Part shown: positions 9,515 through 28,081 of the stretch, in pieces
Position numbering within the stretch: the first letter of the stretch is position 1
How the letters are laid out: each line of letters begins with the position of its first letter
Source: a virus
DNA: 32,882 bases
Reading direction: 5' to 3' (one strand)
IMG/VR virus record: IMGVR_UViG_3300013093_000149
Coordinates: 1-32,882 of that record
Notes under the pieces: generated by a model
What the model saw: the letters and a program-made list of their open reading frames with translations, nothing else
Database searches by the model: none
Told to the model about the DNA's origin: nothing
Position numbers and translations under genes: made by a program

Positions 9515-10573
9515 TTAGTTTTTAAAGTATTCGATCCATATCTTCCTTGTCTTATTAGTATATGACGTTAGGAATGTCCGGTTTAAAAATACGTTCACCT
9601 TATAAATATTATACGTTCTAAGTAAAATCTTGTACATGTCTTCTGACTCTACTGGATTGGCACAGAATAGGGTACTGGCCCATGGAATCTCTGTGGACGC
9701 AATTAATGGAACTCCTTGGCTTATTAAGTCCGCTCCAACGATGTTAAATGTTTCGGAAAATGAACACTGCATACCGATGTCCATGGTCGCACAGGTTTTT
9801 AAGAACTCCTCTCTTGGTTGCCAGATATGATTGATTAGTCTGTGCCCTGCAGGGTAAAGTTGCGTAAAGAATCCTTTTAAGTTGTGAACTATAGCGTCCC
9901 CTTTCATCTCTATTCTGCCCGAGTTTATGTGAAAACGTAATTTCTTGCCTATCTTGTCTGCGAACTTCACGGCAGCAATTGCCTGAACCATGTGATTCTT
10001 CAAAGGTCGTACAGCTCCAAAGCAAGCGATGTCTACGAACTCTTTGGATTTGTCCAATTGTTTTGACTTGTACTCTTGCGGATAAAAGTTTGGTAAATAA
10101 ATTATCTTGTCTTTTACCTCTTCGTTGGAAATTCCCAAAGCGGTCTTTACGTACAGTCTAACCTCTTCCAAAGCTCTTGGTGCGTTTGCTGCAATGGTAA
10201 TGTTTTTGAATCTAGCGTAGTCAGCAACCCAATCGAAAGCTATGCCCTCGTTGGCCAAAAATGGAGTTTCGCTGTGTAGTCTTACGATCCACTTAACGTT
10301 AGGATGTAACTTACACAATACGCTGAATTTGCTTGGGACTACCCACAAAGCTTCGATGATTACGTGAGTGGGTTTGAATTTTGTAACTTCCCTATCGATG
10401 TCGTTGTTGTCCGTAACTACCGATATGTCCGATGTGATGTTGGCCTTTTGTAACATTTCGTTCATGAAATTGGCCGAATTGTATAAACCTGTACTTAAGC
10501 CGATGTGTGAGTCGACTATTCCATTGTAATCTTCTTTTCTCTTCAAGATGAAAAGAATTCTATTGTTTGGCAT
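9515..10573 (-). CDS. Glycosyltransferase-like protein, GT-B fold
   Basis: Predicted glycosyltransferase of about 352 residues. It begins NRILFILKRKEDYNGIVDSHIGLSTGL. The segment THVIIEALWVVPSKF and the motif WIVRLHSETPFLANEG fit the N-terminal GT-B domain, and FGAVRPLKNHMVQAIAA opens the C-terminal nucleotide-sugar domain. The usual EX7E block is replaced by MQCSFSETFNIVGADLISQGVPLIAS, which keeps the SETF...AD..SxGxP pattern. I prefer the ATG at 10573 because the longer ORF needs a GTG and adds a stretch without homology-like features. It is expressed alone, behind a promoter motif. Substrate unknown. Confidence 0.8.
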   Translation of the reverse strand: MPNNRILFILKRKEDYNGIVDSHIGLSTGLYNSANFMNEMLQKANITSDISVVTDNNDIDREVTKFKPTHVIIEALWVVPSKFSVLCKLHPNVKWIVRLHSETPFLANEGIAFDWVADYARFKNITIAANAPRALEEVRLYVKTALGISNEEVKDKIIYLPNFYPQEYKSKQLDKSKEFVDIACFGAVRPLKNHMVQAIAAVKFADKIGKKLRFHINSGRIEMKGDAIVHNLKGFFTQLYPAGHRLINHIWQPREEFLKTCATMDIGMQCSFSETFNIVGADLISQGVPLIASTEIPWASTLFCANPVESEDMYKILLRTYNIYKVNVFLNRTFLTSYTNKTRKIWIEYFKN

Positions 10574-10615
10574 AAACTTGGTTGTGTATGTATTTGGGAG
10601 ATGGTTGTTCGCGAT

Positions 10616-10625
10616 TATAAATATA
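10616..10625 (-). promoter_or_regulatory. Putative phage promoter motif
   Basis: The coding strand reads CTATATTTATAATCG, about 43 bases before the glycosyltransferase ATG at 10573. It lies just after a T-rich stretch that may end the preceding tRNA-like transcript. Confidence 0.5.
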
Positions 10626-10659
10626 GGACTCAGTGGTGGCACAATGTTAATTTATAAAA

Positions 10660-12100: not shown

Positions 12101-13108
12101 TTAATTTACTTGTTTGTGTATCCATTCGTAGGTCTTCTTGACTCCTTCGAACAGTGGATAGAAAACGTCTACGCCCATTTTTTCTTTATATAACGTGTTG
12201 TCAGAAGTTCTTCCTCTTACTCCAGTCGGACATTTGTATCCGTACTTATCGATGAACTCTTGACCGTCTATGTTATCGATCTTAATATTTTTTCCCGACA
12301 CTTTAATCGCTAACTGGGCCAATTGATTGATCGATACCATCTCTTCTGATCCTATGTTAACCGGACCGTCGAAGTTGTCCTGTCTCATGAACAATAAGGT
12401 CTTGTCTATGCACTCGTCGATGTACAAAAAAGATCTTGTCTGCTGACCGTCTCCCCATACTTCTATGCTTCCTCCGTCCTGCGTTTCTGCAGCCTTTCTA
12501 CACATTGCTGCTGGTGCTTTCTCTTTGCCTCCTGTCCACGTACCGTAAGGTCCGTATACGTTGTGATACCTTGCGATCCTCACTTCCAAACCGTAATTAC
12601 GACAGAACGCCAAGAACAATCTTTCGCTAAACAATTTTTCCCATCCGTATTCGGAATCAGGATTCGCTGGGTAAGCACTGGATTCTTCGCAATTGGGATT
12701 GTTTACGTCAAGTTGATTGTGTTCTGGATACATGCACGCCGAAGAACTGTAGAATACTCTCTTTACCTTTTGTCTTGCTGCTTCGTAAGCCACATTCAAA
12801 TTAATCAAAGCAGAGTTGTGCATTACGTTAGCATCGTTGTTTCCAGTAAAAATGTACCCAGCTCCACCCATATCGGCAGCTAATTGATATACTTCGTCAA
12901 AGCTCAAAGTCGGTGCGATCATTATGTCCTTAACGAATTTAGGATCTCTTAGGTCTCCTAAAATAAACTCGTCGCACATTTCTTGCTCTGTAAAGTACTC
13001 GTGACGTTTAATGTCTACAGCACGTACGTAGTGTCCTTCCTCTTTCAACCTCTTGGCCAAATGACCTCCTATGAAGCCACCTGCGCCCAAAACTAATACT
13101 TGTTTCAT
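12101..13108 (-). CDS. GDP-mannose 3,5-epimerase
   Basis: A short-chain-dehydrogenase-fold sugar-nucleotide epimerase of 335 residues. The NAD site is GAGGFIGGHL (8-17). Catalytic residues of plant GDP-mannose 3,5-epimerase (Cys145, Tyr174, Lys178, Lys217) fall at Cys125, Tyr154, Lys158 and Lys197 here, all with the same offset of 20. The surrounding blocks (AADMGGAGYIF, SSSACMYPE, RYHNVYGPYGTWTGG, EKAPAAMCRKA, VWGDGQQTRSFLYIDEC) are strongly family-like. The expected reaction converts GDP-D-mannose to GDP-L-galactose (or the 5-epimer GDP-L-gulose). Its ATG overlaps the stop of an HNH gene. It probably feeds the phage glycosyltransferases. Confidence 0.93.
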   Translation of the reverse strand: MKQVLVLGAGGFIGGHLAKRLKEEGHYVRAVDIKRHEYFTEQEMCDEFILGDLRDPKFVKDIMIAPTLSFDEVYQLAADMGGAGYIFTGNNDANVMHNSALINLNVAYEAARQKVKRVFYSSSACMYPEHNQLDVNNPNCEESSAYPANPDSEYGWEKLFSERLFLAFCRNYGLEVRIARYHNVYGPYGTWTGGKEKAPAAMCRKAAETQDGGSIEVWGDGQQTRSFLYIDECIDKTLLFMRQDNFDGPVNIGSEEMVSINQLAQLAIKVSGKNIKIDNIDGQEFIDKYGYKCPTGVRGRTSDNTLYKEKMGVDVFYPLFEGVKKTYEWIHKQVN

Positions 13109-13668
13109 AGCCTTTTATTTGTAGATCTTACTATTGTTATAAATTCTTCTACCTCTTCTTTAGATGAATTAGACTTAAACTGATTCATCATATCACTGAT
13201 AAACTGTATATTACCTTTTATGTATCCTTTAGAAGAATCGATTCTATCTATAGAAGCTTTATAGTTGGAATTTGCTTTACTATATTCTGGAAATTTAGGT
13301 AACACTAGTTTTGATTTAGTGTACACACATTGTCCAAATTGCGCATTCCATATTTCTATGAGATCTTCTAGCGTTATATCATAATTTCCGAATCTTTCAG
13401 GTTTATTTTTCGCTCTATTCTTAATTCTACGTAAAAATTCTTTCATAGATGCTCTAATAAAACCTTCCTCTGTCAATATCTTATTTTCTCCTCCTTTAAA
13501 AGGTTTCGCTACTTTTTTTATATGTTCTATATTTTGCTCTCTTTTACTTGCGCACTTTAAAGAACAATAAAATATAGTTCTACCTTTTTTAATTTGTCTA
13601 TTGTATTCTGGTTTATGGTAGCCAAATTCAATATCACAATTTCCACATTTTAGGTTTACTTTACTCAT
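13105..13668 (-). CDS. HNH-type homing endonuclease with zinc ribbon
   Basis: A 187-residue free-standing nuclease. The N-terminus has a zinc-binding segment (CGNCDIEFGYHK...FYCSLKCASK), and the C-terminal half carries the phage HNH variant around QCVYTKSKLVL...YKASIDRIDSSKGYIKGNIQFIS, in which IDRID-N-Q replaces the HHxDG core. It ends in an ATGA overlap with the epimerase gene and starts just after the promoter-like motif, the same architecture as the HNH gene at 2279. It also lies beside the tmRNA gene, a plausible intron-less homing target. Confidence 0.88.
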   Translation of the reverse strand: MSKVNLKCGNCDIEFGYHKPEYNRQIKKGRTIFYCSLKCASKREQNIEHIKKVAKPFKGGENKILTEEGFIRASMKEFLRRIKNRAKNKPERFGNYDITLEDLIEIWNAQFGQCVYTKSKLVLPKFPEYSKANSNYKASIDRIDSSKGYIKGNIQFISDMMNQFKSNSSKEEVEEFITIVRSTNKRL

Positions 13669-13689: not shown

Positions 13690-13711
13690 GTGTAGAGGAT
13701 GGAAAGTGTCG

Positions 13712-14215
13712 TGGAGATGGGGAGGGTCGAACTCCCGTCTTCACAATGAACAATAATACCAACGTCTCACACGCTTAGCTATTCTGTACACAGAAGCAAG
13801 AGTTAATCTGACGTAATAAGCATTCTACTCCCCGCGGTACGGAATTGCATCTTACTTAGCCCTACGTTAGCGGTACGGGTACTTATTCTATCTGATTAGT
13901 AGGGGTCGTACGGTTTTAAGGTACTTTACCACCACTTGATTTTACGACTATCAAGAAAACTTCCCCCTGACCGGATTTTAGGAGCCGTCAGGTTTGCTCC
14001 TTTGTAAACACTTCTGTTCCTAGGTTATATGTGCACCGACCCGATTGCGGACTAGGCTGCTACAGCTAAGTCGGCACCTACGAAAGACATTAAGTCTGCG
14101 AAGGTCATTGTAGATAATTCTACGGTTATTGTTTGTACGTAGTTTAAAGAGATACAGTACTTATCTCTGCGTGTAGTATTACCTCCGAATTGTGAATCAA
14201 TTCCAAAGCATCCCC
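13712..14215 (-). ncRNA. ssrA: tmRNA (transfer-messenger RNA)
   Basis: Rescues stalled ribosomes by acting as tRNA-Ala and as a short message. The ends pair as GGGGATG/CATCTCC with the G3-U70 pair required for alanylation. A canonical T arm (GGGAG-TTCGACC-CTCCC) lies at the 3' end, and TTTGGAATTGATTC follows the 5' acceptor as in other tmRNAs. Pseudoknot PK1 is visible: stem GAGATA/TATCTC (14167-14162 with 14154-14149), whose loop GTAC pairs with GTAC at 14138-14135. About 11 bases later a likely resume codon GTA (14123) opens a tag of about 23 residues ending ADLAVAA, with TAG at 14052-14054. At 504 nt it is longer than most. CCA is not encoded. Confidence 0.88.
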
Positions 14216-14545: not shown

Positions 14546-14728
14546 TTACTTTACTTGAGCTTCTGTTTTAGCTCCGCCTTCTGTAGCTTTAGCAGTTGTA
14601 TCCGCAGTTGCTTTTGTTGAATCTACTGTAGTCTTTGTTGAATCTGCAGTTGTAGCAGCGGGAGTGCTAGTACCTCCACAAGCAGCCAATAATAAAGCTG
14701 TTGAGAAAGCGATCATGATTTTTTTCAT
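14546..14728 (-). CDS. Small lipoprotein with Thr/Ala/Lys-rich tail
   Basis: A 60-residue protein with a lipoprotein signal (MKKIMIAFSTALLLAACGG, lipobox LAAC at residues 14-17) followed by a repetitive, disordered tail of DST(K)TT and DTTAKA-like units. It should be lipid-anchored on the periplasmic side, or exposed on the surface, of the host envelope. It has its own host-like promoter at 14764-14771. Short disordered lipoproteins in phages can act in lysis or in blocking superinfection, but nothing here decides this. Confidence 0.75.
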   Translation of the reverse strand: MKKIMIAFSTALLLAACGGTSTPAATTADSTKTTVDSTKATADTTAKATEGGAKTEAQVK

Positions 14729-14763
14729 GGTTTTCTTGTTTTTGATTATTAAATGATAGGATA

Positions 14764-14771
14764 CAAATATA
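14764..14771 (-). promoter_or_regulatory. Bacteroidetes-type promoter (-7 box)
   Basis: The coding strand reads GGTATATTTGTATCC, an exact match to the Bacteroidetes -7 consensus TAnnTTTG. T-rich sequence about 20-25 bases upstream may serve as the -33 element. The lipoprotein ATG lies about 36 bases downstream. Confidence 0.55.
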
Positions 14772-14814
14772 CCCTAACCTGGTAAAATAGAGAAATAAAA
14801 GTTTTTAGTGAGGC

Positions 14815-16209
14815 TTATAAATTTAACCTGCTACCGATCATGAAAGATCTCATTGATGTTGAACCAGTTGTGCTCATCATTGTCTTAAAACTGAAGTTCA
14901 CTTTAAACTTTCTAGTGATCTTAAAGTCCGTACTAAAGCCTGTCAAGAACGTTAGGTCCCTGTTTCTAGTCTGTTGACCCGTATTAGGTGCGTAGGACCA
15001 TGGAGCCGATATCATGAATATGTCCGGGGTTATTATCTTCCTGCCGAACTGTAAGGGATACATGGCGAAGCTGATTATAGAAGGCGATAGATTAAACGAT
15101 CCGCCTTGAACGAACGAGCTGTTAGCGCTCAGGTTGTACCCAGTGATAAGTTTGTCTATTGGCTGAATGTACGTATAGGCAGGGAATACCATGTGATTTT
15201 TGAAGTCGGTGAAATACGTAAGACCGAAATTGTGTAGTGCTTCTAACTGTCCTCTCGAGTTCATTTGATTTTGAGTGTAACTACCTCCTACGGCCACTTT
15301 GCTTAAGTCCAAGAATATCGAAGAGTTAACGCCTATGCTGGACATTCCGGTCATCGAGGACTTGGATATTCCTATGTTCATTGTAGGAACTATCTTTCTA
15401 TTAGGAGCTGTTTCCGCTGCACTCAGATCCGCAGAGAATATCATCGGATTTGTATTCTCCGATTTTTTCTTCTCTTTCTTCTTTTTCTCCTCTTTCTTTT
15501 CTTCTTTCTTTTCTTCTGATTTTGACTCGGATTTTTTCTCTTCTGATTTGGTTTCTGACTTGGATTCGCTCTTTGTTTCAGAAGAGGAACTACTGCTCTT
15601 GTTGTCAGAAGATCCACTCGTAGAAGAGGACGATGAAGACGAAGATGAATTAGAAGAAGATTCTCCGCCTCCACTCGTAGTAGTAGAACTATTAGAAGAA
15701 GAACTTTGATCGCCACCTCCACTCGCTTGGGTCGTAGTGCTAGAACTGCCAGTGGACGGAGCCGCGGTTGGCGCTGCGCTTACGCTTGACGTTGCTGCAC
15801 CGGCGGAACTACTAGCTGCAGAACTTGCAGCAGAAGACGCTGCGGTACTTGCTGCGCTAGATGCAGCCGAAGCCGCGGCAGTTGATGCTGCAGAAGTTGC
15901 CGCTGCAGCAGCTTGTTGTGCTATTACTGTTGTTGCTTGTTGTGATACTGGACACGCTAAAGTAGAATACGATAAGTAAACGCTCTGTAACCATGCTTGT
16001 AACAAACCCAACTGAACTTGTTGTGGAGTAAAGGTTCTAACTTGATCGTAGAAGGATACTACCGCATTTCCGCTTACGTAGGTAGTAGTGGCCACTTTGG
16101 TTTGGCCTGTGCATTTGTCTATGAATGTCTGGGTATAGGTTTGGCCCTTTGCTTTTTCAGCAAACAGGAACGCAACCAATATTAATAGAACTCCCAGCCA
16201 TTTTTTCAT
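14815..16209 (-). CDS. Exported protein: Ala/Ser and Lys/Glu tracts plus outer-membrane-barrel-like domain
   Basis: A 464-residue exported protein. Residues 1-22 are a signal peptide. A folded N-terminal part with two Cys (33, 86) ends near residue 92. Residues 93-150 are almost only Ala/Ser/Thr, 150-210 Ser/Gly/Thr, and 210-252 a KSE/KKEE charged repeat. Residues 255-464 have alternating beta-strand patterns (TMNIGISKSSMTG, GFSTDFKITRKFKVNFSFKT) and end RSFMIGSRLNL, resembling an outer-membrane beta barrel. The linker may cross the periplasm. The start overlaps a tiny basic gene as TAATG. It sits in the exported-protein cluster with a CsgG-like gene. Function unknown. Confidence 0.8.
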   Translation of the reverse strand: MKKWLGVLLILVAFLFAEKAKGQTYTQTFIDKCTGQTKVATTTYVSGNAVVSFYDQVRTFTPQQVQLGLLQAWLQSVYLSYSTLACPVSQQATTVIAQQAAAAATSAASTAAASAASSAASTAASSAASSAASSSAGAATSSVSAAPTAAPSTGSSSTTTQASGGGDQSSSSNSSTTTSGGGESSSNSSSSSSSSSTSGSSDNKSSSSSSETKSESKSETKSEEKKSESKSEEKKEEKKEEKKKKEKKKSENTNPMIFSADLSAAETAPNRKIVPTMNIGISKSSMTGMSSIGVNSSIFLDLSKVAVGGSYTQNQMNSRGQLEALHNFGLTYFTDFKNHMVFPAYTYIQPIDKLITGYNLSANSSFVQGGSFNLSPSIISFAMYPLQFGRKIITPDIFMISAPWSYAPNTGQQTRNRDLTFLTGFSTDFKITRKFKVNFSFKTMMSTTGSTSMRSFMIGSRLNL

Positions 16210-16316
16210 TATTTGTATTTAGCCAATATAGCTAAGTTGTTATTAACTCTCTTTAAAGTCTTAAGTCCCGCTTTGTGACTTCTCATCGGTCTTTTCTTAG
16301 GTGCTGCGTTTGCCAT
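16209..16316 (-). CDS. 35-residue basic protein
   Basis: A short gene between the CsgG-like gene and the barrel-like protein gene. It encodes MANAAPKKRPMRSHKAGL followed by KTLKRVNNNLAILAKYK. It is strongly basic with no membrane segment. Its TAA overlaps the next ATG as TAATG, and it starts four bases after the upstream stop, so the arrangement supports real translation. A nucleic-acid-binding or linker role is possible, but nothing is known. Confidence 0.6.
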   Translation of the reverse strand: MANAAPKKRPMRSHKAGLKTLKRVNNNLAILAKYK

Positions 16317-16319
16317 ATA

Positions 16320-17042
16320 CTAACTTTTGAATATTCCCTTTTTAACCATCCTTAATAAGATTCGAGAACACGCGATGTCTAACGCTTTTTTTGTAGATGT
16401 ACCTATAGTAGATTGATTGAACTTAACTTCGTTTACCGTAGCGTCGCTAATCAAACTTAACTCTCTTGTTGTAGTTGCTTCGCCCAAACCAGAAGCCGCG
16501 AATATTTCTCCGGTCTCTGCGTCAGTGAATCTAACTTGTAAACCCAATCTTGTTACAACCTTGTCTTTCACTCCGTCCTTTAAATTAACTTGTTCATCGT
16601 CGGATACAGAGAAGTCGTACACTTCGATCTCAACAAAGTAGTGAGCCAATCTGATCTTGCCCCTACCGTCCAATTTATCTTGACTGATTCCAGCTTGACT
16701 GGCTTGGAATTGTTTTACCATTCTATTTTTTATCTCTGTCTTGTCTTCTGTAAAAGTGAATCTATTCAAGTTCTCAAGGTATTCCATTGTAATGTTTGCA
16801 ACACCCAGGCCGACTTTCTTTTCTTTCAACTCAGGATACTGCTCGTATACTTCGTCACCGATACCGCATTTCAATATCTGAATAGGAATCGTAGGACCAG
16901 AATAGTCCATGAATTGACTGATGTCCACCTTTGTTTCGAAAGACGCTTTATAGTTTTCGGTCTTAGTTGACCCAATAGTTTGAGAAAAGCTAAATACCGG
17001 TAATAATATTACTAATATTGAGAAAAAAATAAACTGCTTCAT
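16320..17042 (-). CDS. CsgG-like envelope protein
   Basis: A 240-residue exported protein whose body resembles CsgG/HfaB, the outer-membrane curli-type secretion channel subunits. After a signal peptide (1-20, ending FSFSQ) come VGLGVANITMEYLENLNRFTFTEDKTEI and a helix (KNRMVKQFQASQAGI). The later part has strands VEIEVYDFSVS and VVTRLGLQVRFTDAETGEIFAASG, then a C-terminal helix (KKALDIACSRILLRMVKKG). In CsgG these correspond to the alpha/beta periplasmic domain and the strands flanking the barrel. There is no lipobox Cys, unlike classical CsgG. It neighbours lipoproteins and secreted repeat proteins, so export of a fibre or surface protein is possible. Confidence 0.65.
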   Translation of the reverse strand: MKQFIFFSILVILLPVFSFSQTIGSTKTENYKASFETKVDISQFMDYSGPTIPIQILKCGIGDEVYEQYPELKEKKVGLGVANITMEYLENLNRFTFTEDKTEIKNRMVKQFQASQAGISQDKLDGRGKIRLAHYFVEIEVYDFSVSDDEQVNLKDGVKDKVVTRLGLQVRFTDAETGEIFAASGLGEATTTRELSLISDATVNEVKFNQSTIGTSTKKALDIACSRILLRMVKKGIFKS

Positions 17043-17043
17043 A

Positions 17044-17346
17044 TTAGTGTCTTCTATAAGATGGTCTGTAATAAACTCTAGGTCCTACAGGAACAATGAT
17101 TCTTGGAGCAATGAATGGGTAGTACAAACCCCCGTAAATTACAGGAGTTGTTACTACGTTAACGCTTGCTTGAGGTACACTGTAACCTTCGCTTTGTTGA
17201 TAGTACTTTGTCTTGATTTTGATTTGCTTTCCTGTACTGTCGGTAGTAGTTGTTTCTACCACTCTAACTGGAGTGCAGCTGCTCATAAACATAACTAACC
17301 ATAAAAATAAAATAAAGGACGCACAAATTGTAATGATCTTTTTCAT
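17044..17346 (-). CDS. Lipoprotein with Tyr/Pro/Val-rich tail
   Basis: A 100-residue lipoprotein: a signal with lipobox MSSC (Cys24), then a short strand-rich region (VRVVETTTTDSTGKQIKIKTKYYQQ) and a tail rich in Tyr, Pro and Val (GGLYYPFIAPRIIVPVGPRVYYRPSYRRH). The longer frame to 17469 was rejected because it lacks a signal at its start and overlaps the upstream gene. It is adjacent to the CsgG-like gene (two bases apart). Tail composition suggests a surface-exposed, aggregation-prone peptide. Confidence 0.75.
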   Translation of the reverse strand: MKKIITICASFILFLWLVMFMSSCTPVRVVETTTTDSTGKQIKIKTKYYQQSEGYSVPQASVNVVTTPVIYGGLYYPFIAPRIIVPVGPRVYYRPSYRRH

Positions 17347-17347
17347 A

Positions 17348-17563
17348 TTATTTGGTTTTTGGTGATTTGTACCATATATTGTCCGGGCTGTCTTTGAACG
17401 TTGCGTCGAACTTCCATTCGAACTCTGTCGCCATTCTTTGTTCTTTTTCTTCGTCTGTAAAATGGACATAGATCATAAACACTTCAAAAGAAAATGCGAA
17501 TGCTACCCAAGCACAAACGAATACTAAAAATGTTTTACCTAATATATCGATAATTTTTTTCAT
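17348..17563 (-). CDS. Small single-pass membrane protein
   Basis: A 71-residue protein with one transmembrane segment (FLVFVCAWVAFAFSFEVFMIYV, residues 12-34) and a charged C-terminal half (FTDEEKEQRMATEFEWKFDATF). It lies between the holin-like gene and the lipoprotein gene, so a lysis-accessory role is possible. No known family. Confidence 0.65.
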   Translation of the reverse strand: MKKIIDILGKTFLVFVCAWVAFAFSFEVFMIYVHFTDEEKEQRMATEFEWKFDATFKDSPDNIWYKSPKTK

Positions 17564-17591
17564 AGTCTATTTTAAATTTATAGTGGAATAC

Positions 17592-17855
17592 TTATTCCGC
17601 TGTTGGAGGTGCTGGTGTATCTGTTGGTGCTTTCTTGGTGAATTTGTCCAAAGTATCCGCGCCCATTCCTACTGCGGTAATCACCATAACGGCGTTTACT
17701 AATTCTGCAGAAGGTTTGAATCGTTCTTCGGAAAAACTGTTAGCCAACATAGTACCGCATAAAAATAATGCACCAACAAAACCAATTACTGGTTTGATTG
17801 AAGTTGATCCTCTTTCGTCTTTGAAAAGATCAATAAGCCATTCTTTGAAAGTCAT
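17592..17855 (-). CDS. Holin-like membrane protein
   Basis: An 87-residue protein with an amphipathic start (TFKEWLIDLFKDERGSTS) and two hydrophobic segments (PVIGFVGALFLCGTMLAN and AELVNAVMVITAVGMGADTLDKF), ending in a Pro/Thr/Ala tail. This topology and the ADTLDKF region resemble small phage holins of Bacteroidetes phages, which form membrane holes for endolysin release. It is followed by another holin-like gene 26 bases upstream, so the pair may be holin and antiholin. Confidence 0.6.
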   Translation of the reverse strand: MTFKEWLIDLFKDERGSTSIKPVIGFVGALFLCGTMLANSFSEERFKPSAELVNAVMVITAVGMGADTLDKFTKKAPTDTPAPPTAE

Positions 17856-17881
17856 AGTCTTTAATTTTTAGTTTTTATTGT

Positions 17882-18466
17882 TTAGTGGGAATCGTCCCAA
17901 GATTCTTTTAGTAATCCACAGGTTTGGCACTCTAAATGACCGTCGTGATCGCTATCACCCCACACGTGTTGACACTGTCTGTGCTCGTGGTGCTCGAACT
18001 CTAGCTTTTCCATCTCGTGTTGGTGCTTTTGTTGAGCCACAGCCAATTCGTGATCTTGCTTGTTTTCAACTACGGCCAAATCCCTTGCTGCTGAAGCTCC
18101 GGCGATAAACGCGTCTGGAATTAACGGAGTTGGAGGAGTGTTGGTCACCTTCATATCGTTTGTGTTAGAAAGTGTGGTACCGTCTTCCTCGTCCATCTTT
18201 TGAACCAACATTTTGTCTTTGTCCTGATCGCTGAACCAGTAGTCGATGATCTTACCGTAGCTACCGATGAAGGCTCCTAATAATAACATTAGTAACTCTT
18301 TCCATCCAGCGGCCATTGCTGTGTTCATCATGATAGCGGCAAATATACCTGCTATGATTAAAATAAATCCACCTAGAACCATAGCGGTAATATACCATCT
18401 ACGTTTCATTACTGAATTTAATAGGTCTCTAAAACCCGTGTTAGGTTGTTTAACTTCTTCTGCCAT
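17882..18466 (-). CDS. Holin-like two-helix membrane protein with zinc-binding tail
   Basis: A 194-residue protein. Residues 28-50 (ITAMVLGGFILIIAGIFAAIM) and 57-75 (LLMLLLGAFIGSYGKII) are transmembrane helices, followed by DYWFSDQDKDK. The GAFIGSYGKIIDYWF pattern resembles phage holins with a GxxxGxYxxxxxYWFG signature. The C-terminal tail is long, with a His-rich coiled coil (HELAVAQQKHQHEMEKLEFEHHEHR) and a possible zinc site of CQHVWG...HLECQTC. That tail is unusual for a holin. It might regulate opening or bind metal. Confidence 0.65.
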   Translation of the reverse strand: MAEEVKQPNTGFRDLLNSVMKRRWYITAMVLGGFILIIAGIFAAIMMNTAMAAGWKELLMLLLGAFIGSYGKIIDYWFSDQDKDKMLVQKMDEEDGTTLSNTNDMKVTNTPPTPLIPDAFIAGASAARDLAVVENKQDHELAVAQQKHQHEMEKLEFEHHEHRQCQHVWGDSDHDGHLECQTCGLLKESWDDSH

Positions 18467-18469
18467 AAA

Positions 18470-18841
18470 TTACCATTGAGCTGGTTTTTCTTTAAATTCG
18501 TCCCCTTCTTTCTTAGGCTTTGGTTGTTCAGATCTTTCTGCCTTCTTTAAGTCTTTGTCAGCTGGAGCTTTTTCTTTTATAATTACTGTTTTGCTACCCG
18601 CAGCTTGCTGTTGTTGAGCTGGGATATTGATGTTAATGCTTTGCTGAGTTTGAGGTTGAGCTTTAGCATCTGTCTCTTTTGGTTTCTGTAAATAGGTCAT
18701 TAAAAATGCACCACCAGCGGTAACTAAAGTACCGACAGTTCCAATGATTGTTTTCTTCAAACCAGACATTGAGCCATCGTTGTGCTTTTCGTTCTTAGCC
18801 ATTGCTTCGTCAGGCGTTTGTTCTTTTTTTGCTTTTGCCAT
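18470..18841 (-). CDS. Single-pass membrane protein, lysis-cluster
   Basis: A 123-residue protein with a charged N-terminus, one transmembrane segment (KKTIIGTVGTLVTAGGAFLMTYL, residues 29-51), and a long tail rich in Gln/Lys/Pro/Glu (QSININIPAQQQQAAGSKTVIIKEK). No signal peptide, so it is N-in/C-out. It could be an i-spanin-like partner or a membrane anchor, as it lies between two lipoprotein genes and a holin-like gene. I do not recognise a family. Confidence 0.6.
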   Translation of the reverse strand: MAKAKKEQTPDEAMAKNEKHNDGSMSGLKKTIIGTVGTLVTAGGAFLMTYLQKPKETDAKAQPQTQQSININIPAQQQQAAGSKTVIIKEKAPADKDLKKAERSEQPKPKKEGDEFKEKPAQW

Positions 18842-18842
18842 A

Positions 18843-19208
18843 TTATAATTTATTAAAATCTGTTATTGCTAATAATGCACCTTTAGCATCGTATACCGCA
18901 ATTCTATAAGCAGAAGATGGGAAAGCAGAAGTGTACAACTTAAGGATATTGTCTCCTTCTTTAACATCGGCTGTAGATTTGGATACTACGCTATTAGTGA
19001 TATTCAATATTTTGATAGTCACAGTTTGAGCTGTGCTAGTCTTAACGTTCATTGATACTTCGCTGGTTACGAACACAGTCTGTAATTTAATACCAACTGA
19101 GCTACCGATAACCAAATTAGTAGGAGTTTGCACAGAAGCCGTAGACACATCTTTAGTACATCCAGCAAGCAGGATAAACGCAACCGCTATTGTACATAAT
19201 TTATTCAT
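18843..19208 (-). CDS. Lipoprotein with type IX sorting-domain-like fold
   Basis: A 121-residue lipoprotein (lipobox LAGC, Cys16) with one repeat-like beta domain. The C-terminal half (ILNITNSVVSKSTADVKEGDNILKLY, then TSAFPSSAYRIAVYDAKGALLA) follows the plan of type IX secretion C-terminal domains: V.D..G..V......G.N.l.I....l..g.Y.l.v.d..g. It is not long enough to carry a separate cargo. Its neighbour at 19220 has the same pattern, suggesting a duplicated pair. An interaction with host surface proteins or the secretion machinery is a guess. Confidence 0.65.
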   Translation of the reverse strand: MNKLCTIAVAFILLAGCTKDVSTASVQTPTNLVIGSSVGIKLQTVFVTSEVSMNVKTSTAQTVTIKILNITNSVVSKSTADVKEGDNILKLYTSAFPSSAYRIAVYDAKGALLAITDFNKL

Positions 19209-19219
19209 TTTCTATTAGT

Positions 19220-19573
19220 TTAGTTGACAATTAAAGTCGTTTTGACTATTTGGTTCTTTGTGCTGTCCTCTAGCAATAAATATAGGTACTTGCTTTGGAG
19301 AGCTCTGGTATAAATATTTAGCTTATTGGTTCCAATGACGCCCTTGATTATTTCTCTGGTAACCACCTGATTTTCTATGGAGTCCATCATGGTCAACGTG
19401 TAGGTCCCTGCGGATTTTAACGTAAATTGTATCTCTTGTCCGTTGGAAACAGTATTTTGCGCAGCATCAAATACGTTCTTATCCGGCGTTACTTTTTGTA
19501 CGGGCGCAACAGTCTTTGTGCACGATATTATAAAAAGCATACAACACAATATTATAGTTTTCATACATTTCAT
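19220..19573 (-). CDS. Lipoprotein, paralogue-like to the next gene
   Basis: A 117-residue lipoprotein (lipobox IISC, Cys18) with the segment YTLTMMDSIENQVVTREIIKG, then VIGTNKLNIYTRALQSKYLYLLLED and KTTLIVN at the end. This matches the type IX C-terminal-domain-like plan seen at 18843 and is compatible with the sorting-domain ending K-t-I-V-N. The start overlaps the PA14 gene's stop as TAATG. As a small lipoprotein with only this domain, it is unlikely to be a normal type IX cargo. The similarity is by pattern only. Confidence 0.65.
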   Translation of the reverse strand: MKCMKTIILCCMLFIISCTKTVAPVQKVTPDKNVFDAAQNTVSNGQEIQFTLKSAGTYTLTMMDSIENQVVTREIIKGVIGTNKLNIYTRALQSKYLYLLLEDSTKNQIVKTTLIVN

Positions 19574-21183
19574 TAATTTACCGTTATTTTTAATTGGGTC
19601 CCAGATTGATTAACTGCATCTATGGGTGTTATTGTTATTAGACCCAGTACGTTGGTTAATTTTACTAAAGGTTTAAACGATATAACGTATTTGGTCGTGT
19701 TGTCGAGCATCCCAGTGCCGTTTGTGATTAAAGATCCAAAGTTTATGTACTGTCCCTTGTTCGTAGAAAAATTATTAGAGTTATTGACAGTGGTGAAAGT
19801 CGCGCTTTGATACTGCAATATCGAACTATCGTAATTCAAGTGATATTGAGTTCCTACCACTGCCTGCTGTAAAGGATCTAGGGTTATGGTAGCGTAAACA
19901 CTGTCGCCTATCAACTGGGTCACTATCGAAGATTGAATCTTATTCGATACCGGTGACTCAAGGGAAAACGTTGCTACTCCTGCAGTTTGTTTGGTAGAGT
20001 AACTAAGTTTAGCGTCCCCTAACCATATAGTGGCCACGTAGAAAGTATCGTTAAGTTTTCCACTCGGTAAAGTGAAAGGTACTAACGATCTTGTTCCACT
20101 GTAAGCGCTCCAATTGGTGTGATTGATACTATCGTAAGTAGATTGATTGTACAGCTTTAGCATGTTGGGTAAAGTAGACACTAAGGATTTTTTGCCGGTC
20201 AAATGTTGTAAAAGTAAGTAGCAATCGGTTTCGTCAAATTGCCCATCGTTGTTTACGTCAGCGGCTATATATTGAGCAGCAGAGGTAAAGTAATTACCAG
20301 CAGTGTTTCCTAGTAGCCCTTTGTTAGAATATTCCTGAAACGCTAGATACACATTCGACACGGTTATGATACCATTGTATAAGGAAGTTAAATTGGTTGT
20401 GGTCGTTAGTCCCAAAGCTTCGGCCTTATTTTTGGTAGTATCCACGCTAGTACTTACGTCCACAGTATCGCTAGTGCTAATCGCAGTTGCAGTATTGTTT
20501 GGAGTTAAAGTGTAAGCGTTATTAGCGTAAGTGTAGATATTAGTGCTAAAATTGGTCGGTGTTATTAATGTGTTAAAATTGAAATTAAACTGGACTTTCA
20601 ATTGTTGTGTTACTGTAGGTTGCGTAGAATAGAGTTCGTCTGCTTGTACTGCGTAAGAAGATTGAGAAGGTCTTTTCCAAGTTAAATACATTCCCCATCC
20701 TCCGCCGGTTTGTTGCATTCTGGCCACAAAAGTGTACGATTGACCAGCGACTAAATTAATAGATCCATAACGATATCCTGAAAATCCGTGAGGACCGTAC
20801 TCCGAAGTAACCACAGCTCCGTTCAAAGAGAAGTCAACTCCATCGTCTCCGTCTATTGCGAAGGAATAAGTTCCGGTCTCTTTTGGAATAAAGTAACCAT
20901 AGGATTTGATTCCGAAATAAGCGCCACCGTTAGGGACTCCAGTAAAAAAAGTTTGACTAAAGTATATTGCGTTGCTTGCAGTCGTAACTCCGGATTTGTA
21001 TATTGTAGTACCATTTGCGGTATTAAACATATTGTTAAAATCCGTAGCGCTGTTAGCGTAAACGTTCGCACCACCATTGTAAGTTGCAATGTTGTATATC
21101 GTATAATTCAAATAGCCTACTCCCGATTGAGAGTAAGCTATTGAAGAAATTAATAATAAGAATGCAACTATTAAGGATTTCAT
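19573..21183 (-). CDS. Secreted PA14 / dockerin-like / cohesin-like protein
   Basis: A 536-residue exported protein. Residues 1-19 are a signal peptide. Residues 22-190 form a PA14-like domain, with the diagnostic DGDDGVDFSLNG at 111-122 and WGMYLTWKRP near 163-172; such domains often bind carbohydrates. Residues 266-330 resemble a dockerin: VSNVYLAF, then AADVNNDGQFDETDCYLLLQHL with a calcium-loop pattern D-N-N-D-G-x-x-D. Residues 416-536 are cohesin-like beta structure (ATITLDPLQQAVVGTQYHLNYDS). No lipobox. Cohesin and dockerin parts normally pair, so this protein could self-assemble. It is adjacent to a paralogue. Confidence 0.72.
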   Translation of the reverse strand: MKSLIVAFLLLISSIAYSQSGVGYLNYTIYNIATYNGGANVYANSATDFNNMFNTANGTTIYKSGVTTASNAIYFSQTFFTGVPNGGAYFGIKSYGYFIPKETGTYSFAIDGDDGVDFSLNGAVVTSEYGPHGFSGYRYGSINLVAGQSYTFVARMQQTGGGWGMYLTWKRPSQSSYAVQADELYSTQPTVTQQLKVQFNFNFNTLITPTNFSTNIYTYANNAYTLTPNNTATAISTSDTVDVSTSVDTTKNKAEALGLTTTTNLTSLYNGIITVSNVYLAFQEYSNKGLLGNTAGNYFTSAAQYIAADVNNDGQFDETDCYLLLQHLTGKKSLVSTLPNMLKLYNQSTYDSINHTNWSAYSGTRSLVPFTLPSGKLNDTFYVATIWLGDAKLSYSTKQTAGVATFSLESPVSNKIQSSIVTQLIGDSVYATITLDPLQQAVVGTQYHLNYDSSILQYQSATFTTVNNSNNFSTNKGQYINFGSLITNGTGMLDNTTKYVISFKPLVKLTNVLGLITITPIDAVNQSGTQLKITVN

Positions 21184-22814
21184 TATTCTACTGTTAGCTT
21201 AACTTTGTTACCGCTACCGTCTACCGCATCGGCCAACACTGTAAAGAACAATCCAGTTGCGTCAGTCAATGGAACAGTAGGTGTAAAAATTAATGTGTAA
21301 GGAACTCCAACTTTAATTCTAGCAGTTTTAATTTGATCTATAGAACCAAAAGTCAATCTACCGTTATTGTGCGTAGAGAAGTTAGTGATATCGTTTCCTG
21401 CGTCGAATACTACGTTCGATAAGCTTAACTTAGTGCTATCGTATTGTAATATAACTTGCAATCCTGCCAAACCAGCTTGAGTTAAAGTTCCAGTCAAAAT
21501 AACTTTACCGTTAGTTATAGTAGAAGATAAATTCAACGAAGCATCAGTTATAGTTGGAGCCGCTGTGTTTACGGAGAAAGAAGATATTTTATCAGCGCTA
21601 TTAACTGACATGCCTGCAACCGATCCTGGTATTAAAGAAGGATCCGTTGAGTGAGAGAAGTTTAAGTCTCCACCGTAAGCGTAAGCTAAAGTATCGATTT
21701 GATTAATTGAGTTGATGGTGAATGTGTGATCTGACAAAGATCCTGCTGCCCAATTATTATACTTTCCTGACATGAAACTCATTGCAGTAGCCGTTGACGA
21801 TGGGATTCTTGCTTTTGAACTTACGTCTATGCCCATTACGTAAGCAAATAAATAATACGCATCGTTGCTGTCAAACGTAGAATCCTGAATACCAACGTGA
21901 CCGATTATCTTCTGTAAAGTAGGGTAAGTAAAATAGTTGTTAGTTCCGGTCAACCCAACTTCAGAAACACCCAAGAAAGCTTTGTAAGCGTTGGATACTG
22001 TTACGATATTGTCCAAGTAAGGTTTACCAAAAGACGGAGTAACGTAGACTGCAAATTTTTGACCCACTTTTAAAGTCGTAAACGTAGCAATACCTTGAGC
22101 GTTAAACTTAGTTTGCGCAATTGGAGGATTGCTCCAATCGGTAGTTCCATCGGTTTTAAGACCCATTATCTGGGCGTTCAAGTTTGTGATAGTTGTGTCC
22201 CCTTGTGGAAACGCTATAGCAACTTTATAAGACGACGTGTTTCCTATTACGTTAGAAGTAGGAATAGTAAAATCCAACACTTGAGATCCTATGTTTGCGA
22301 TTGCTTTACCTGCAGAATCGGTAGCATTTGATAGATCAAGCTTGTGAATATATGTGTAGTCTTTCTGATCTAATAAAATGTATTTTTGAGAAGCTATCAA
22401 CCCTGAAATTGGTGCGTCGGTTCTTTGTACAGTTAACTGACCAATATTCCAGCTATTGTTTGCTGCGTAATTCCATGGAGTGTGTTGGAACTGTCCGTAC
22501 AAATCTCCTACGCCTATAGTTGGGTAAGAACTAAATTGATAGTTGTTCCAGCTCGTATAGTAAGTTTGAGAAGAAGTACCTTGAGAAAATACTGTACTAT
22601 TAGGAACGTACTGTAACGCACCGTTATTGTATTGGTATCTCAACCAAAAATAACGAGGTGTTGTCCCAGAGTTAGTAACCGTATAGCTGATGGTCAAAGT
22701 ATCTCCTACGTGATAAGGAGGCTGTTGAACTATCGCCTGGTTAATAGTTATGTTTTGAGAAAAAGAACAAAGGGATATCAAAAGTATCCCTAAAAATAAT
22801 ACAATTTTTTTCAT
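21183..22814 (-). CDS. Secreted cohesin-like / dockerin-like protein
   Basis: A 543-residue exported protein with a signal peptide (1-20). Residues 22-130 look like an immunoglobulin-type or CARDB-like domain (PPYHVGDTLTISYTVTNSG). Residues 265-330 (LDNIVTVSNAYKAFLGV ... DSTFDSNDAYYLFAYV) match the dockerin-like part of the 19573 gene, though the calcium loop is more degenerate. Residues 425-543 are cohesin-like (GTLTQAGLAGLQVILQYDS). The two proteins share the C-terminal plan but have different N-terminal domains. The stop/start overlap (TAATG) supports co-expression. Role probably extracellular adhesion or matrix. Confidence 0.72.
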   Translation of the reverse strand: MKKIVLFLGILLISLCSFSQNITINQAIVQQPPYHVGDTLTISYTVTNSGTTPRYFWLRYQYNNGALQYVPNSTVFSQGTSSQTYYTSWNNYQFSSYPTIGVGDLYGQFQHTPWNYAANNSWNIGQLTVQRTDAPISGLIASQKYILLDQKDYTYIHKLDLSNATDSAGKAIANIGSQVLDFTIPTSNVIGNTSSYKVAIAFPQGDTTITNLNAQIMGLKTDGTTDWSNPPIAQTKFNAQGIATFTTLKVGQKFAVYVTPSFGKPYLDNIVTVSNAYKAFLGVSEVGLTGTNNYFTYPTLQKIIGHVGIQDSTFDSNDAYYLFAYVMGIDVSSKARIPSSTATAMSFMSGKYNNWAAGSLSDHTFTINSINQIDTLAYAYGGDLNFSHSTDPSLIPGSVAGMSVNSADKISSFSVNTAAPTITDASLNLSSTITNGKVILTGTLTQAGLAGLQVILQYDSTKLSLSNVVFDAGNDITNFSTHNNGRLTFGSIDQIKTARIKVGVPYTLIFTPTVPLTDATGLFFTVLADAVDGSGNKVKLTVE

Positions 22815-22817
22815 AGT

Positions 22818-23303
22818 TTAAAGTAGTTTAGACACAACCTGAACGCATGTTTTTTTAATTGCGTTTCTCATAACGGTTGAGTTAAACTCTCCAGACTCTG
22901 AAATCAATAACGTAGATGTGGATATTTCAGAAGACTCGTCGGTCACCAACTCCTTTTTAACAACCTTTCCTTGCTTGTCGATTAATTTACCAAGCATTCT
23001 AATAACCACCGCGTTTTCGTCCTTGTGGAATATGGCTACATTGGAAGCAGTCTTTTGCTGGTCCATGTATACGATCTCCACGTCGACAAAAAGATCCGCG
23101 TCTTGTTTGTTAACTAGTGTGTAACCTTTGTCCTGTAAAACCTCTTGAATAATATTTTTGACCCCGAATGTCAGGTTTAAATTCCCGGTCATTGGGCCCA
23201 TTTTAACGCTGTTTCTAACAGTGTTTACCGAAATCTTAGACTTTGCCTCTTGGGATAAAACAAAAAGAGGACATATCAATAGTAATAACGTTAATAACTT
23301 CAT
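22818..23303 (-). CDS. Exported protein with CsgG-like fold
   Basis: A 161-residue exported protein: signal peptide to residue 18 (FVLSQ), then helices and strands (VKNIIQEVLQDKGYTLVNKQDADLFVDVEIVYM; VVIRMLGKLIDKQGKVVKKELV) and a C-terminal helix (MRNAIKKTCVQVVSKLL). The order of an alpha/beta unit, two long strands and a helix parallels the CsgG-like gene at 16320, including a polar STSTLL loop before the last helix. It is smaller than typical CsgG and lacks a lipobox. It follows a TATATTTATA motif by about 42 bases and opens the exported-protein cluster. Confidence 0.55.
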   Translation of the reverse strand: MKLLTLLLLICPLFVLSQEAKSKISVNTVRNSVKMGPMTGNLNLTFGVKNIIQEVLQDKGYTLVNKQDADLFVDVEIVYMDQQKTASNVAIFHKDENAVVIRMLGKLIDKQGKVVKKELVTDESSEISTSTLLISESGEFNSTVMRNAIKKTCVQVVSKLL

Positions 23304-23622: not shown

Positions 23623-24375
23623 TTAATTTTTAAATTCGAATAAAGTAAATTTATTATCGTTGTCCATTAAAATCGCTGTTCTATTTTCCACCCAATCTCC
23701 TGAGTTTATGTATCTATTGTTGTTGATCGTCAAATCTGCAGGTTGGTGAATGTGACCGCAAATTGCACCGTAACAGCCTCTCTTTTTGGCCATCTGTATT
23801 GCCGCGGTCTCGAAGTCGTTTATATAATTGGTGGCAGCTTTTACGCCTGCTTTTATGTCCTTTGATATGGATTGGTAAGGTAACTTTCTCCAAGCTCTGT
23901 ATCGGTTGTACCACCTGTTGCACCAGAGCGCTAGGTCGTAACCAATCGATCCTATCTTTGCAATCCATTTGTACTTTGTAATGAACACGTCTATAACGTC
24001 CCCATGAAATACAAAATAGTTTCGTCTATTGTAACTGTCGTTTTCGGTCCATTCAATGGATTCTATAACGTAGTCCTCTCTTATCTCTATGTTACCAAAA
24101 TGCGTACCGATAAATTCTGTCAAGAACTCATCGTGATTACCTCTGATCCAAATTATTTTGGTCTTGTTCGATATCTTTAATAATTTAGATATGACTTTGG
24201 TGTGTTGCTTCTTCCATTTGGATCCTCTATTTAAGGCCCAGCCGTCTACGATGTCGCCGTTCAATATTAAAAGATCGGTTGGATGTTTGTCCAAAAATTC
24301 CATGAAATCCTTCGCCTTGCTGTCTTTTGTGCCAAGATGTAGATCCGATACGATGATCGCTTTGTATTTAATCAT
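23623..24375 (-). CDS. Calcineurin-like phosphoesterase, LpxH-like
   Basis: A 250-residue metallophosphoesterase. All five classical motifs are present: DLHLG (Asp11, His13), GDIVDGW, GNHDE, HGD and GHIH. The order and extra helical insert (RNYFVFHGDVIDVFITKYKW...LALWCNRWYNRYRAWRKLP) resemble LpxH-type UDP-2,3-diacylglucosamine hydrolases, which take part in lipid A synthesis. Start set at 24375 because its ATG overlaps the stop of the GT2 gene as ATGA. With neighbouring glycosyltransferase and envelope genes, a role in altering host lipid A or a phosphoester is possible, but the substrate is not established. Confidence 0.85.
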   Translation of the reverse strand: MIKYKAIIVSDLHLGTKDSKAKDFMEFLDKHPTDLLILNGDIVDGWALNRGSKWKKQHTKVISKLLKISNKTKIIWIRGNHDEFLTEFIGTHFGNIEIREDYVIESIEWTENDSYNRRNYFVFHGDVIDVFITKYKWIAKIGSIGYDLALWCNRWYNRYRAWRKLPYQSISKDIKAGVKAATNYINDFETAAIQMAKKRGCYGAICGHIHQPADLTINNNRYINSGDWVENRTAILMDNDNKFTLFEFKN

Positions 24376-25067
24376 GTCCAATAATTGTGGTCTTTTTTAA
24401 ACCATTCATCGTTGTTTCTGTTCAGCCAAGATTGCCAAGCCAGTTTGATCATATACCATACACCTTTCTTATCAAATCTTCTGCTCGTAGTATGTGCATA
24501 ACAATTAACGATTCTAAATTTTTTGGGCAAAACTTTCGAACTGAGATGATAGTCCTCAGCAACTTTGTCTTCTTCATTGAATCCTCCTAATTTATTAAAA
24601 GTATCTGTTTTAAATATCATGAATCCACCTATGGCAAAGGGCCTAGTCTTTGAACTTAACAATTGGATAACATCGAATACCCTGTACACCCAATTGAATT
24701 TACCACCCAAAGTTTTAAACTTACAAGTAACCAAATCGTAATCTCCTTTTTTGGCTACTTCCAAACATTTTTTGACAAGGTTTTTGTCCTTTAGATACAT
24801 GTCAGCATCAAGGAATAAAACGTAAGGCGTGGTTACCAATTTTGCGCCCTTGTTTCTGGCCACCGAAGGCAATCCACCTTCTATTATTCTTATTACTTGA
24901 GGAGATCTGGATCTATAGTTGTGCATCAAGGTGAAAGTATTGTCCTTGGAAGAATCAGCTATGATAATTTGACAATCCAGTCCTTGTCTTACGATTAACT
25001 TTAGGACCTCTATAATACCTTGGCCTTCATTTTTACATGGAATAACTATCGTAATATCTTTATTCAT
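24372..25067 (-). CDS. Glycosyltransferase family 2
   Basis: A 231-residue GT-A enzyme opening with DITIVIPCKNEGQGIIEVL. The DxD motif is Asp87-Ala-Asp89 in FLDADMYL, and KVAEDYHLSSK supplies the acidic catalytic region that follows in GT2 enzymes (GGFNEEDKVAEDYHL). The start at 25067 is preferred to 25091 because it begins with the family N-terminus; the promoter motif lies three bases upstream, implying a very short or absent leader. Coupled by ATGA to the LpxH-like gene. The acceptor is unknown, possibly lipid or envelope glycan. Confidence 0.88.
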   Translation of the reverse strand: MNKDITIVIPCKNEGQGIIEVLKLIVRQGLDCQIIIADSSKDNTFTLMHNYRSRSPQVIRIIEGGLPSVARNKGAKLVTTPYVLFLDADMYLKDKNLVKKCLEVAKKGDYDLVTCKFKTLGGKFNWVYRVFDVIQLLSSKTRPFAIGGFMIFKTDTFNKLGGFNEEDKVAEDYHLSSKVLPKKFRIVNCYAHTTSRRFDKKGVWYMIKLAWQSWLNRNNDEWFKKDHNYWT

Positions 25068-25070
25068 GTA

Positions 25071-25079
25071 TATAAATAT
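25071..25079 (-). promoter_or_regulatory. Putative phage promoter motif, near-leaderless
   Basis: The coding strand reads GTGATATTTATATACATG, so the motif's last A is about four bases from the GT2 ATG. It directly abuts the stop codon of the upstream glucosaminidase gene. Confidence 0.5.
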
Positions 25080-25642
25080 CACCGGTTCCATTTCATGCGC
25101 CTCGACCTTTTCTTGGGAGTTTTATTTTTCGGTATAAACTTCTTAGAGTGATAAACCACTTTAGTATCGTTGTCGAAATCGTCCAATTTAAGACGAACTA
25201 TAATGTCTTTTAACTGGGACGAGTAGCTACGTCCTACCTCGCTGTATATGTAATCCAAGTAATTGTAATAGGCCTGCTCTGTGTTTATGCTCTTGATGTC
25301 GTTTCTAACAGAAAGCATTAGGTAGTAGTCTATCACGCTTTCTTCCCATTTTTTGTAGTGAGCGTATCCATTGATGGAAGTATCGGCCGTGGTCATTCTG
25401 TTGTAAGGGACTCTCATGCCGTAAAGGTTATTGTTCACTTTAAAGTTCTTAGAAGTAAACCAACCAGTTTCTAATACAGCTTGCGCTACTACTATTCTTT
25501 TAAACTTAAAAGGCAAAGAGTAAACGGCCAGCTCTACGTCCTTTACTGTAAGACTATCGTTAGGGATTGTCATTATCGTAGGTTGCGAAGTGCAGCTCAT
25601 TAGCGTACACAATAAAAAGATCGTCAAAATTATTTTTTTCAT
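25079..25642 (-). CDS. Glucosaminidase-domain lipoprotein (peptidoglycan hydrolase)
   Basis: A 187-residue lipoprotein (lipobox LMSC, Cys17) carrying a glucosaminidase domain of the FlgJ/Bax type. The signature is VVAQAVLETGWFTSKNF followed by NNLYGMR, in which Glu58 is the probable catalytic residue; the later YSEVGRSYSSQLKDII helix fits the family. It would cleave N-acetylglucosamine bonds of peptidoglycan from the host periplasm. Start at the ATG (25642), overlapping the preceding stop as ATGA. It is an endolysin candidate, but a lipid-anchored one. The very basic C-terminus (KKFIPKNKTPKKRSRR) is unusual. Confidence 0.85.
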   Translation of the reverse strand: MKKIILTIFLLCTLMSCTSQPTIMTIPNDSLTVKDVELAVYSLPFKFKRIVVAQAVLETGWFTSKNFKVNNNLYGMRVPYNRMTTADTSINGYAHYKKWEESVIDYYLMLSVRNDIKSINTEQAYYNYLDYIYSEVGRSYSSQLKDIIVRLKLDDFDNDTKVVYHSKKFIPKNKTPKKRSRRMKWNR

Positions 25643-25977
25643 TTCCAAAATATTTGAATTGCAACTATACTGAAAGCAAGTAATATACTCAGTAAAGTTT
25701 TTAAATTAAAGGGTTCTCTAAATAGAATAATGCTCATGGTCGTAAATACGATTATTCCTACAGCAAAGCCTATCAATCTACTCGGCCAAATTTCTCCGGC
25801 GAATCCATGAACAAAGTACCGAACCGACTTGATGTAGCATCAACTCAAAGGCACACTCATCAAGAGTATCAGCCACATGTACTTTTCGTACCATCCGTAT
25901 TTGATAGCTCCTTGTAATTGTAAAAAAGATCCCATTTGGCCCAATACGCCGAATAGAATTCCGTATATTATATCCAT
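25639..25977 (-). pseudogene. Four-helix membrane protein gene interrupted by in-frame TGA
   Basis: A 113-codon frame that reads continuously as membrane protein sequence except for TGA at 25840-25842 (codon 46). Before it: MDIIYGILFGVLGQMGSF...YMWLILLMSVPLS; after it: CYIKSVRYFVHGFAGEIWPS...GFAVGIIVFTTMSIILF. The TGA sits where the surrounding sequence would fit Trp (one base from TGG). The first ATG overlaps the preceding TAA and the final TGA overlaps the next ATG, so the gene is in normal operon context. It could be a recent nonsense mutation, a sequencing error or programmed readthrough. Other genes end at TGA, so the whole genome is not recoded. Family: small membrane/transporter-like, unidentified. 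Confidence 0.75.
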
Positions 25978-28070: not shown

Positions 28071-28081
28071 AAAAAAGAAAA

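Follow-up and report, generated by a model that had tools for sequence, protein, structure and literature searches.

A conserved envelope-protein module with a CsgG-fold protein and cohesin-containing adhesins in large Bacteroidota phages: a candidate surface-display apparatus

The envelope gene cluster and its surroundings

The window, i.e., the whole stretch of DNA analysed here, is the complete 32,882-base IMG/VR record IMGVR_UViG_3300013093_000149, a fragment of a large tailed phage. Genes read from the translations include thyA, dCMP deaminase, dUTPase and glycosyltransferases, and three tRNAs and one tmRNA are also encoded. Judged by the most conserved envelope gene of the window, the closest cultured relative is the 160-kb Flavobacterium phage immuto, at 52.6% identity for the product of that gene. 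Several homing endonuclease-like ORFs of the HNH or GIY-YIG type are present (2279-2950, 13105-13668, 27429-28088, 29730-30458 and 32255-32782 (-)), some of them adjoining thyA, dUTPase or tRNA genes. Glycosyltransferase-like genes and a sugar epimerase-like gene are situated around the cluster described below (762-1433, 2987-4285, 4293-5744, 9515-10642, 12101-13108 and 24372-25091 (-)); their targets may be surface sugars or DNA. The tmRNA (13709-14215, minus strand; Rfam RF00023, 62.4 bits, E 2.7e-22), which ARAGORN did not report, adjoins the cluster; phage Melnitz also encodes both a tmRNA and CsgG (PMC9004378).

Thirteen consecutive ORFs with operon-like packing occupy positions 14546-23303 of the minus strand (Table 1), and between 23303 and 18470 neighbouring genes overlap or stand no more than about 12 nt apart. 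A Bacteroidota promoter pattern gave 2 matches against 1.5 expected, none of them informative, and scans for sigma-70 promoters and terminators gave weak enrichment at best. An earlier note on this DNA had described all thirteen products as exported, lipidated or membrane proteins, and the hydropathy and lipobox scan by which protein types were called bears this out, with five signal-peptide proteins, four lipoproteins, three clear membrane proteins and a borderline one (18470-18841). The membrane label of the latter is marginal because its Gly/Thr-rich hydrophobic stretch fails every 15-residue cut-off; its conserved C-terminal tail (...KKKEGDEFKEKPAQW) has W as the last residue. The true start of the 141-aa ORF at 17044-17469 is most likely an internal MKKIIT. 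The 14815-16209 product comprises an N-terminal domain, a Ser/Ala/Lys/Glu-rich linker and a predicted C-terminal outer-membrane beta-barrel; Leu or Phe is the C-terminal residue in 83 of 91 homologues, and 5 of 40 family members match DUF5777, “membrane bound beta barrel” (best 1.8e-4). A role as virion proteins was set aside in view of the signal peptides or lipoboxes on most members.

Table 1. Coordinates and main features of the thirteen envelope ORFs
Product	Position	Strand	Features
Second CsgG-like / YajG-like periplasmic protein (suggestive only), 161 aa	22818..23303	-	Signal peptide, no lipobox; core gene
Adhesin 1, 543 aa	21183..22814	-	Signal peptide, no lipobox; beta-sandwich N-terminal part, dockerin-like helices, predicted C-terminal cohesin
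Adhesin 2, 536 aa	19573..21183	-	Signal peptide, no lipobox; PA14, dockerin-like segment
Lipoprotein with divergent T9SS-CTD-like domain, 117 aa	19220..19573	-	Lipobox IISC; family matches Por_Secre_tail
Lipoprotein, free-standing T9SS-CTD-like domain without sorting motifs, 121 aa	18843..19208	-	Lipobox LAGC
Small tail protein, 123 aa	18470..18841	-	Marginal TM helix, Pro/Gln-rich linker, conserved C-terminal tail; core gene
Two-TM protein, accessory	17882..18466	-	Hydropathy; 29/69 loci
Two-TM protein, putative holin, accessory	17592..17855	-	Hydropathy; 46/69 loci
Single-TM small protein, accessory	17348..17563	-	Hydropathy; patchy conservation
Lipoprotein, 100 aa from internal Met, accessory	17044..17469	-	Lipobox MSSC; in few relatives
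CsgG-fold protein (predicted structure), 240 aa	16320..17042	-	Signal peptide, no lipobox; most conserved core gene
Ser-rich barrel-like protein, 464 aa	14815..16209	-	Signal peptide, no lipobox; core gene
Small lipoprotein, 60 aa, accessory	14546..14728	-	Lipobox LAAC; 13 loci

Folds, sorting domains and conservation

Two of the products had been likened to CsgG and two to large surface proteins with cohesin-like and dockerin-like parts, with structure prediction suggested as a check. For the 240-aa protein, the CsgG assignment comes from structure only, since sequence and profile searches of its family against Pfam and PDB gave no match: Pfam CsgG (PF03783) matches none of 58 family members and, at E<=1, none of 16 related phage records, whereas control genomes are detected. 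The AlphaFold2 model, built with 44 relatives, has a mean pLDDT of 76.5; ranks 1-18 of its Foldseek search against PDB are all CsgG (E 5.6e-7 to 2.1e-5, probability 1.00), followed by related folds such as PelC and GNA1162, and its top match in the BFVD viral structure library is a phage protein annotated as CsgG (E 2e-7). The model thus points to a CsgG fold for the monomer. Against CsgG it reaches TM-scores of only about 0.4-0.55, and compared with the hairpins of E. coli CsgG the amphipathicity of TM1 is comparable and that of TM2 weaker; these values, together with the failure of Pfam CsgG, indicate that the protein may therefore be a non-membrane ring like PelC. Alignment of the family to E. 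coli CsgG by hhalign covered a short TGEI motif alone and was not significant. Curli CsgG is an N-terminally lipidated lipoprotein that forms a nonameric 36-strand outer-membrane pore; the window protein lacks a lipobox, and a lipobox-like match occurs in 30 of 183 homologues. The search that finds the canonical CsgG of phages HTVC008M and Melnitz, at 37-40% identity to E. coli CsgG, does not recover the 240-aa family; this family and the pelagiphage curli CsgG are distinct.

The likeness of the 161-aa protein to CsgG is suggestive only. Lipoprotein_16 is matched by 46 of 64 members of its family (best 4.2e-6), weak TraT and DUF4136 matches are also found, and a weak profile-profile match to the 240-aa family (E 6.5e-4, probability 27%) runs through a KFNQ...KK motif. 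A protein search against 50,697 phages returned no match for the 161-aa protein, nor for the 536-aa PA14 protein. Of the two CsgG-like proteins proposed, the 240-aa one is upheld by its predicted structure.

In the case of the adhesins, the AlphaFold2 model of the 543-aa protein (mean pLDDT 88.7) yields a cohesin fold: Foldseek against PDB retrieves the cohesins of cellulosomes and clostridial glycosidases, besides Gram-positive pilins, with a probability of 1.00 and, for the cohesins, TM-scores by target of about 0.6-0.7. The cohesin covers residues about 423-543 and the dockerin-like helices residues about 262-326. A profile of this protein searched against all PDB sequences gave only two matches at E<1: residues 430-510 align with a scaffoldin cohesin and residues 262-320 with a dockerin (E 0.11); each would be weak by itself, yet both lie where the architecture predicts. 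Adhesin 2 carries a Pfam PA14 domain (8.7e-11, residues about 87-182) and a Dockerin_1 match below the gathering score (0.0027, residues 299-328), and its C-terminal part is related to adhesin 1. The cohesin proposal is therefore sustained by predicted fold, and the dockerin, with its Pfam and PDB profile matches, is probable. In a set of 78 diverse adhesins from related loci, matches were found to Cohesin (PF00963; 27), Lectin_C (17), the T9SS CTD (9), PA14 (6), GEVED (3), Laminin_G_3 (2) and LCCL (2), which suggests exchangeable heads on a constant module machinery. A search with the NCBIfam sorting domains gave no match on 19573-21183 or 21183-22814, and Sec is the only export signal found on the window's own adhesins.

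The two lipoproteins encoded next to the adhesins are related to T9SS (type IX secretion system) sorting domains. Immuto gp015 combines a Cohesin domain (5.9e-9) with a C-terminal T9SS type A domain (TIGR04183, 9.3e-12), both above curated cut-offs, and gp013 holds a C-type lectin (3e-15). A single-sequence search with the immuto CTD recovered, besides the C-termini of other adhesins, 14 stand-alone lipoproteins like those of the window (best E 7e-7 for the lipoproteins; 0 matches in shuffled controls), and Por_Secre_tail is matched by 13 of 52 members of the 18843-19208 family (best 1.3e-7). Of the 61 loci with a tail-protein gene, 54 have a CTD-ending gene directly 5' of it; this gene encodes a lipoprotein in 31 of them, and in the other 23 the CTD closes an adhesin. 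All 53 CTD-ending large adhesins of relatives have both the PxP and the GxY motif; in lipoproteins of the 18843-19208 family, PxP is found in 0 of 96 and GxY in 16 of 96. We read this as one gene that was split (or fused) during evolution, with the sorting function apparently lost in the lipoprotein branch. In window-type phages the sorting domain would thus persist as a free lipoprotein devoid of sorting motifs.

An IMG/VR scan with the 240-aa protein gave 462 confirmed relatives, and more distant queries gave 61 and 113, sets that may overlap. Co-occurrence, which had been put forward as a further check, was assessed in 69 loci with full context, dereplicated at 95% but still related by descent and hence not independent trials, and it is strong: 68 loci have the second CsgG-like gene (161-aa type), 67 the Ser-rich barrel-like gene and 61 the small tail protein gene, and none of the 69 lacks a large adhesin gene. 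Core partners thus occur in 88-99% of the loci, against 3-26% for the window's flanking genes used as internal control (thioredoxin 18, phosphoesterase 3, glycosyltransferase 2). As judged from gene content, the cluster is a real module, conserved as a unit beyond chance, and the block appears to be carried by hundreds of large Bacteroidota viruses. A host origin was rejected: a GTDB scan for close relatives found them in only two MAG contigs, likely phage sequence binned with the host. Other genes accompany the module in some loci. In 15 of 69, a gene for a DNA/RNA non-specific endonuclease with a signal-peptide-like N-terminus is located next to or within it (e.g., L046 5888-6541 and L138 9189-9797, the latter an Endonuclease_NS); chaperonin-like and iron-sulfur assembly-like genes are found upstream in L046; and a very large protein (about 1900-2130 aa) of no identified family is encoded upstream of the module in one lineage (L129, L133, L137, L150 and L172).

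Possible roles of the module

The earlier note had envisaged an envelope or fibre system, and the CsgG and cohesin folds together with the co-occurrence lend support to an envelope module of surface adhesins; the extracellular fibre, modified receptor access and block of other phages that it also proposed are conjectural. We give about an even chance to the reading that the cluster is a phage-encoded module by which infected Bacteroidota cells come to display carbohydrate-binding cohesin/dockerin adhesins. Sec would take the proteins, whose signal peptides are evident in their sequences, to the periplasm, where the CsgG-fold protein would form an outer-membrane ring, perhaps with the 161-aa and Ser-rich barrel proteins, and the small protein with the conserved tail may connect the inner membrane to this assembly. 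The adhesins differ in their glycan-binding heads (PA14, C-type lectin, laminin-G, LCCL), which are exchangeable, and their dockerin and cohesin parts could chain them together. In the immuto lineage, the cohesin protein with its T9SS type A sorting domain could be secreted through the type IX system of the host. The CTD of the window lineage is a separate lipoprotein without sorting motifs; its probable role is therefore that of an anchor or docking component at the outer membrane, and the adhesins would exit by another route, possibly the CsgG-like ring. The likely benefit would be an altered surface of the infected cell, favouring adhesion to cells or particles, or masking receptors from competing phages.

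More tentatively, the products might assemble into a cellulosome-like phage fibre, in which subunits with dockerin and cohesin are joined head to tail and bear exchangeable glycan-binding tips, exported and anchored by a new CsgG-fold ring, and with a T9SS domain turned into an anchoring lipoprotein. Cellulosome scaffoldins share with the module the cohesin fold, as predicted, and a dockerin-like segment within the same chains. Unlike them, the window module shows no catalytic modules among the domains found, has a cell-surface/adhesin context, and its dockerin is only probable.

Unlikely, in our judgement, is a lysis or outer-membrane disruption module, in which ring, lipoproteins and tail protein would act with holin and endolysin, in place of spanins, to breach the outer membrane as infection ends, and the adhesin-like proteins would be envelope scaffolds or be freed with the progeny. 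A pinholin-like role has been proposed for phage CsgG in Melnitz (PMC9004378). An endolysin gene is found no more than 3 kb from the module in 31 of 69 loci, a putative holin-like gene nearby in 46, and one or the other in 54; the endolysin families differ (GH19, Amidase_2, Peptidase_M15), as if exchanged at one site, and the putative holin 17592-17855 adjoins the endolysin gene in several relatives. In the window, a glucosaminidase gene (25079-25648, Pfam 7.9e-13) lies four genes upstream of the module. Furthermore, an outer-membrane lipoprotein gene directly before a putative inner-membrane protein gene is a spanin-like order. The linkage with endolysins could stem from a functional connection or from both being expressed late. 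Against lysis, the immuto module sits among replication and nucleotide-metabolism genes, with the endolysin about 6 kb off; it is hard to see what lysis would gain from the variable lectin, PA14 and laminin-G heads or from the T9SS sorting domains; PHROG gave no match for the holin-like genes, and no known spanin family was recognised.

Rather improbable is a superinfection exclusion acting through the host T9SS, with the CTD-like lipoproteins as decoys for the T9SS/gliding machinery and the adhesins masking surface glycans. T9SS or gliding mutants may resist phages. The lipoproteins are related to T9SS sorting domains, and a good share of the adhesins bear heads that bind surface glycans; but the motifs that the T9SS would recognise are lost (PxP) or mostly lost (GxY) from the lipoproteins. 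Finally, a genuine type VIII (curli) secretion system that makes an amyloid fibre, the proposal put forward for pelagiphages, is very improbable and a full curli system was rejected, despite the CsgG fold of the 240-aa protein and the annotated phage CsgG as its nearest viral structure, since no Curlin repeat, CsgE or CsgF turned up when the ten main proteins were scanned with matches accepted up to E 1, PF03783 is silent in the related phage records, and the family stands apart from canonical phage CsgG.

Relation to known phage systems and significance

Phage curli modules have been described in pelagimyophages, pelagipodophages and methylophage Melnitz (PMC7029224, PMC9599517, PMC9004378). 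As in the module presented here, a CsgG fold is encoded by the phage next to exported genes, and both are widespread in aquatic phages; unlike it, the curli modules descend from proteobacteria and have their own recognisable CsgG and CsgF (and, according to one account, CsgA/B), whereas the window has no PF03783 match and encodes a barrel-like protein, cohesin/dockerin adhesins and CTD lipoproteins instead. As regards the type IX system, the account of Cryophage (PMC7468147) reports variable secreted cargo with T9SS type A tags in a Bacteroidota phage, one of them with PA14. The cargo genes are separate there, and the passages on them describe no such module, in contrast to the module presented here, where the sorting domain is part of a constant, operon-like gene set that includes the CsgG-fold protein; in the window lineage the domain stands apart on a lipoprotein. 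The cultured relative immuto (Immutovirus) has the orthologous module in gp013-gp019, with a C-type lectin, a cohesin with T9SS CTD, the tail protein, the CsgG-fold protein (52.6% identity), the barrel and a second CsgG-like protein; unlike the window, its CTD is fused to the cohesin protein, the second CsgG-like gene follows the barrel, and both the PA14 protein and the CTD lipoproteins are missing. Searches among open-licence papers for phage T9SS cargo and phage cohesin-dockerin systems turned up no account of the whole set. In this sense, the claim that no such system had been described stands for the set as a whole in that literature, but both of its themes have precedents, in phage curli and in the T9SS cargo of Cryophage.

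The module has gone unannotated, most of its immuto genes being labelled “hypothetical protein”, and it includes a CsgG-fold family that sequence searches do not detect and a secretion tag that appears to have been converted into a lipoprotein. Immuto and its host, Flavobacterium sp. LMO8, are in culture, making the module testable now. A module of several kilobases kept in hundreds of aquatic Bacteroidota phages must pay its way; if the adhesins are indeed displayed, the virus would re-surface the cells it infects, and the aggregation, sinking and grazing of these cells, as well as the competition among phages, would be affected.
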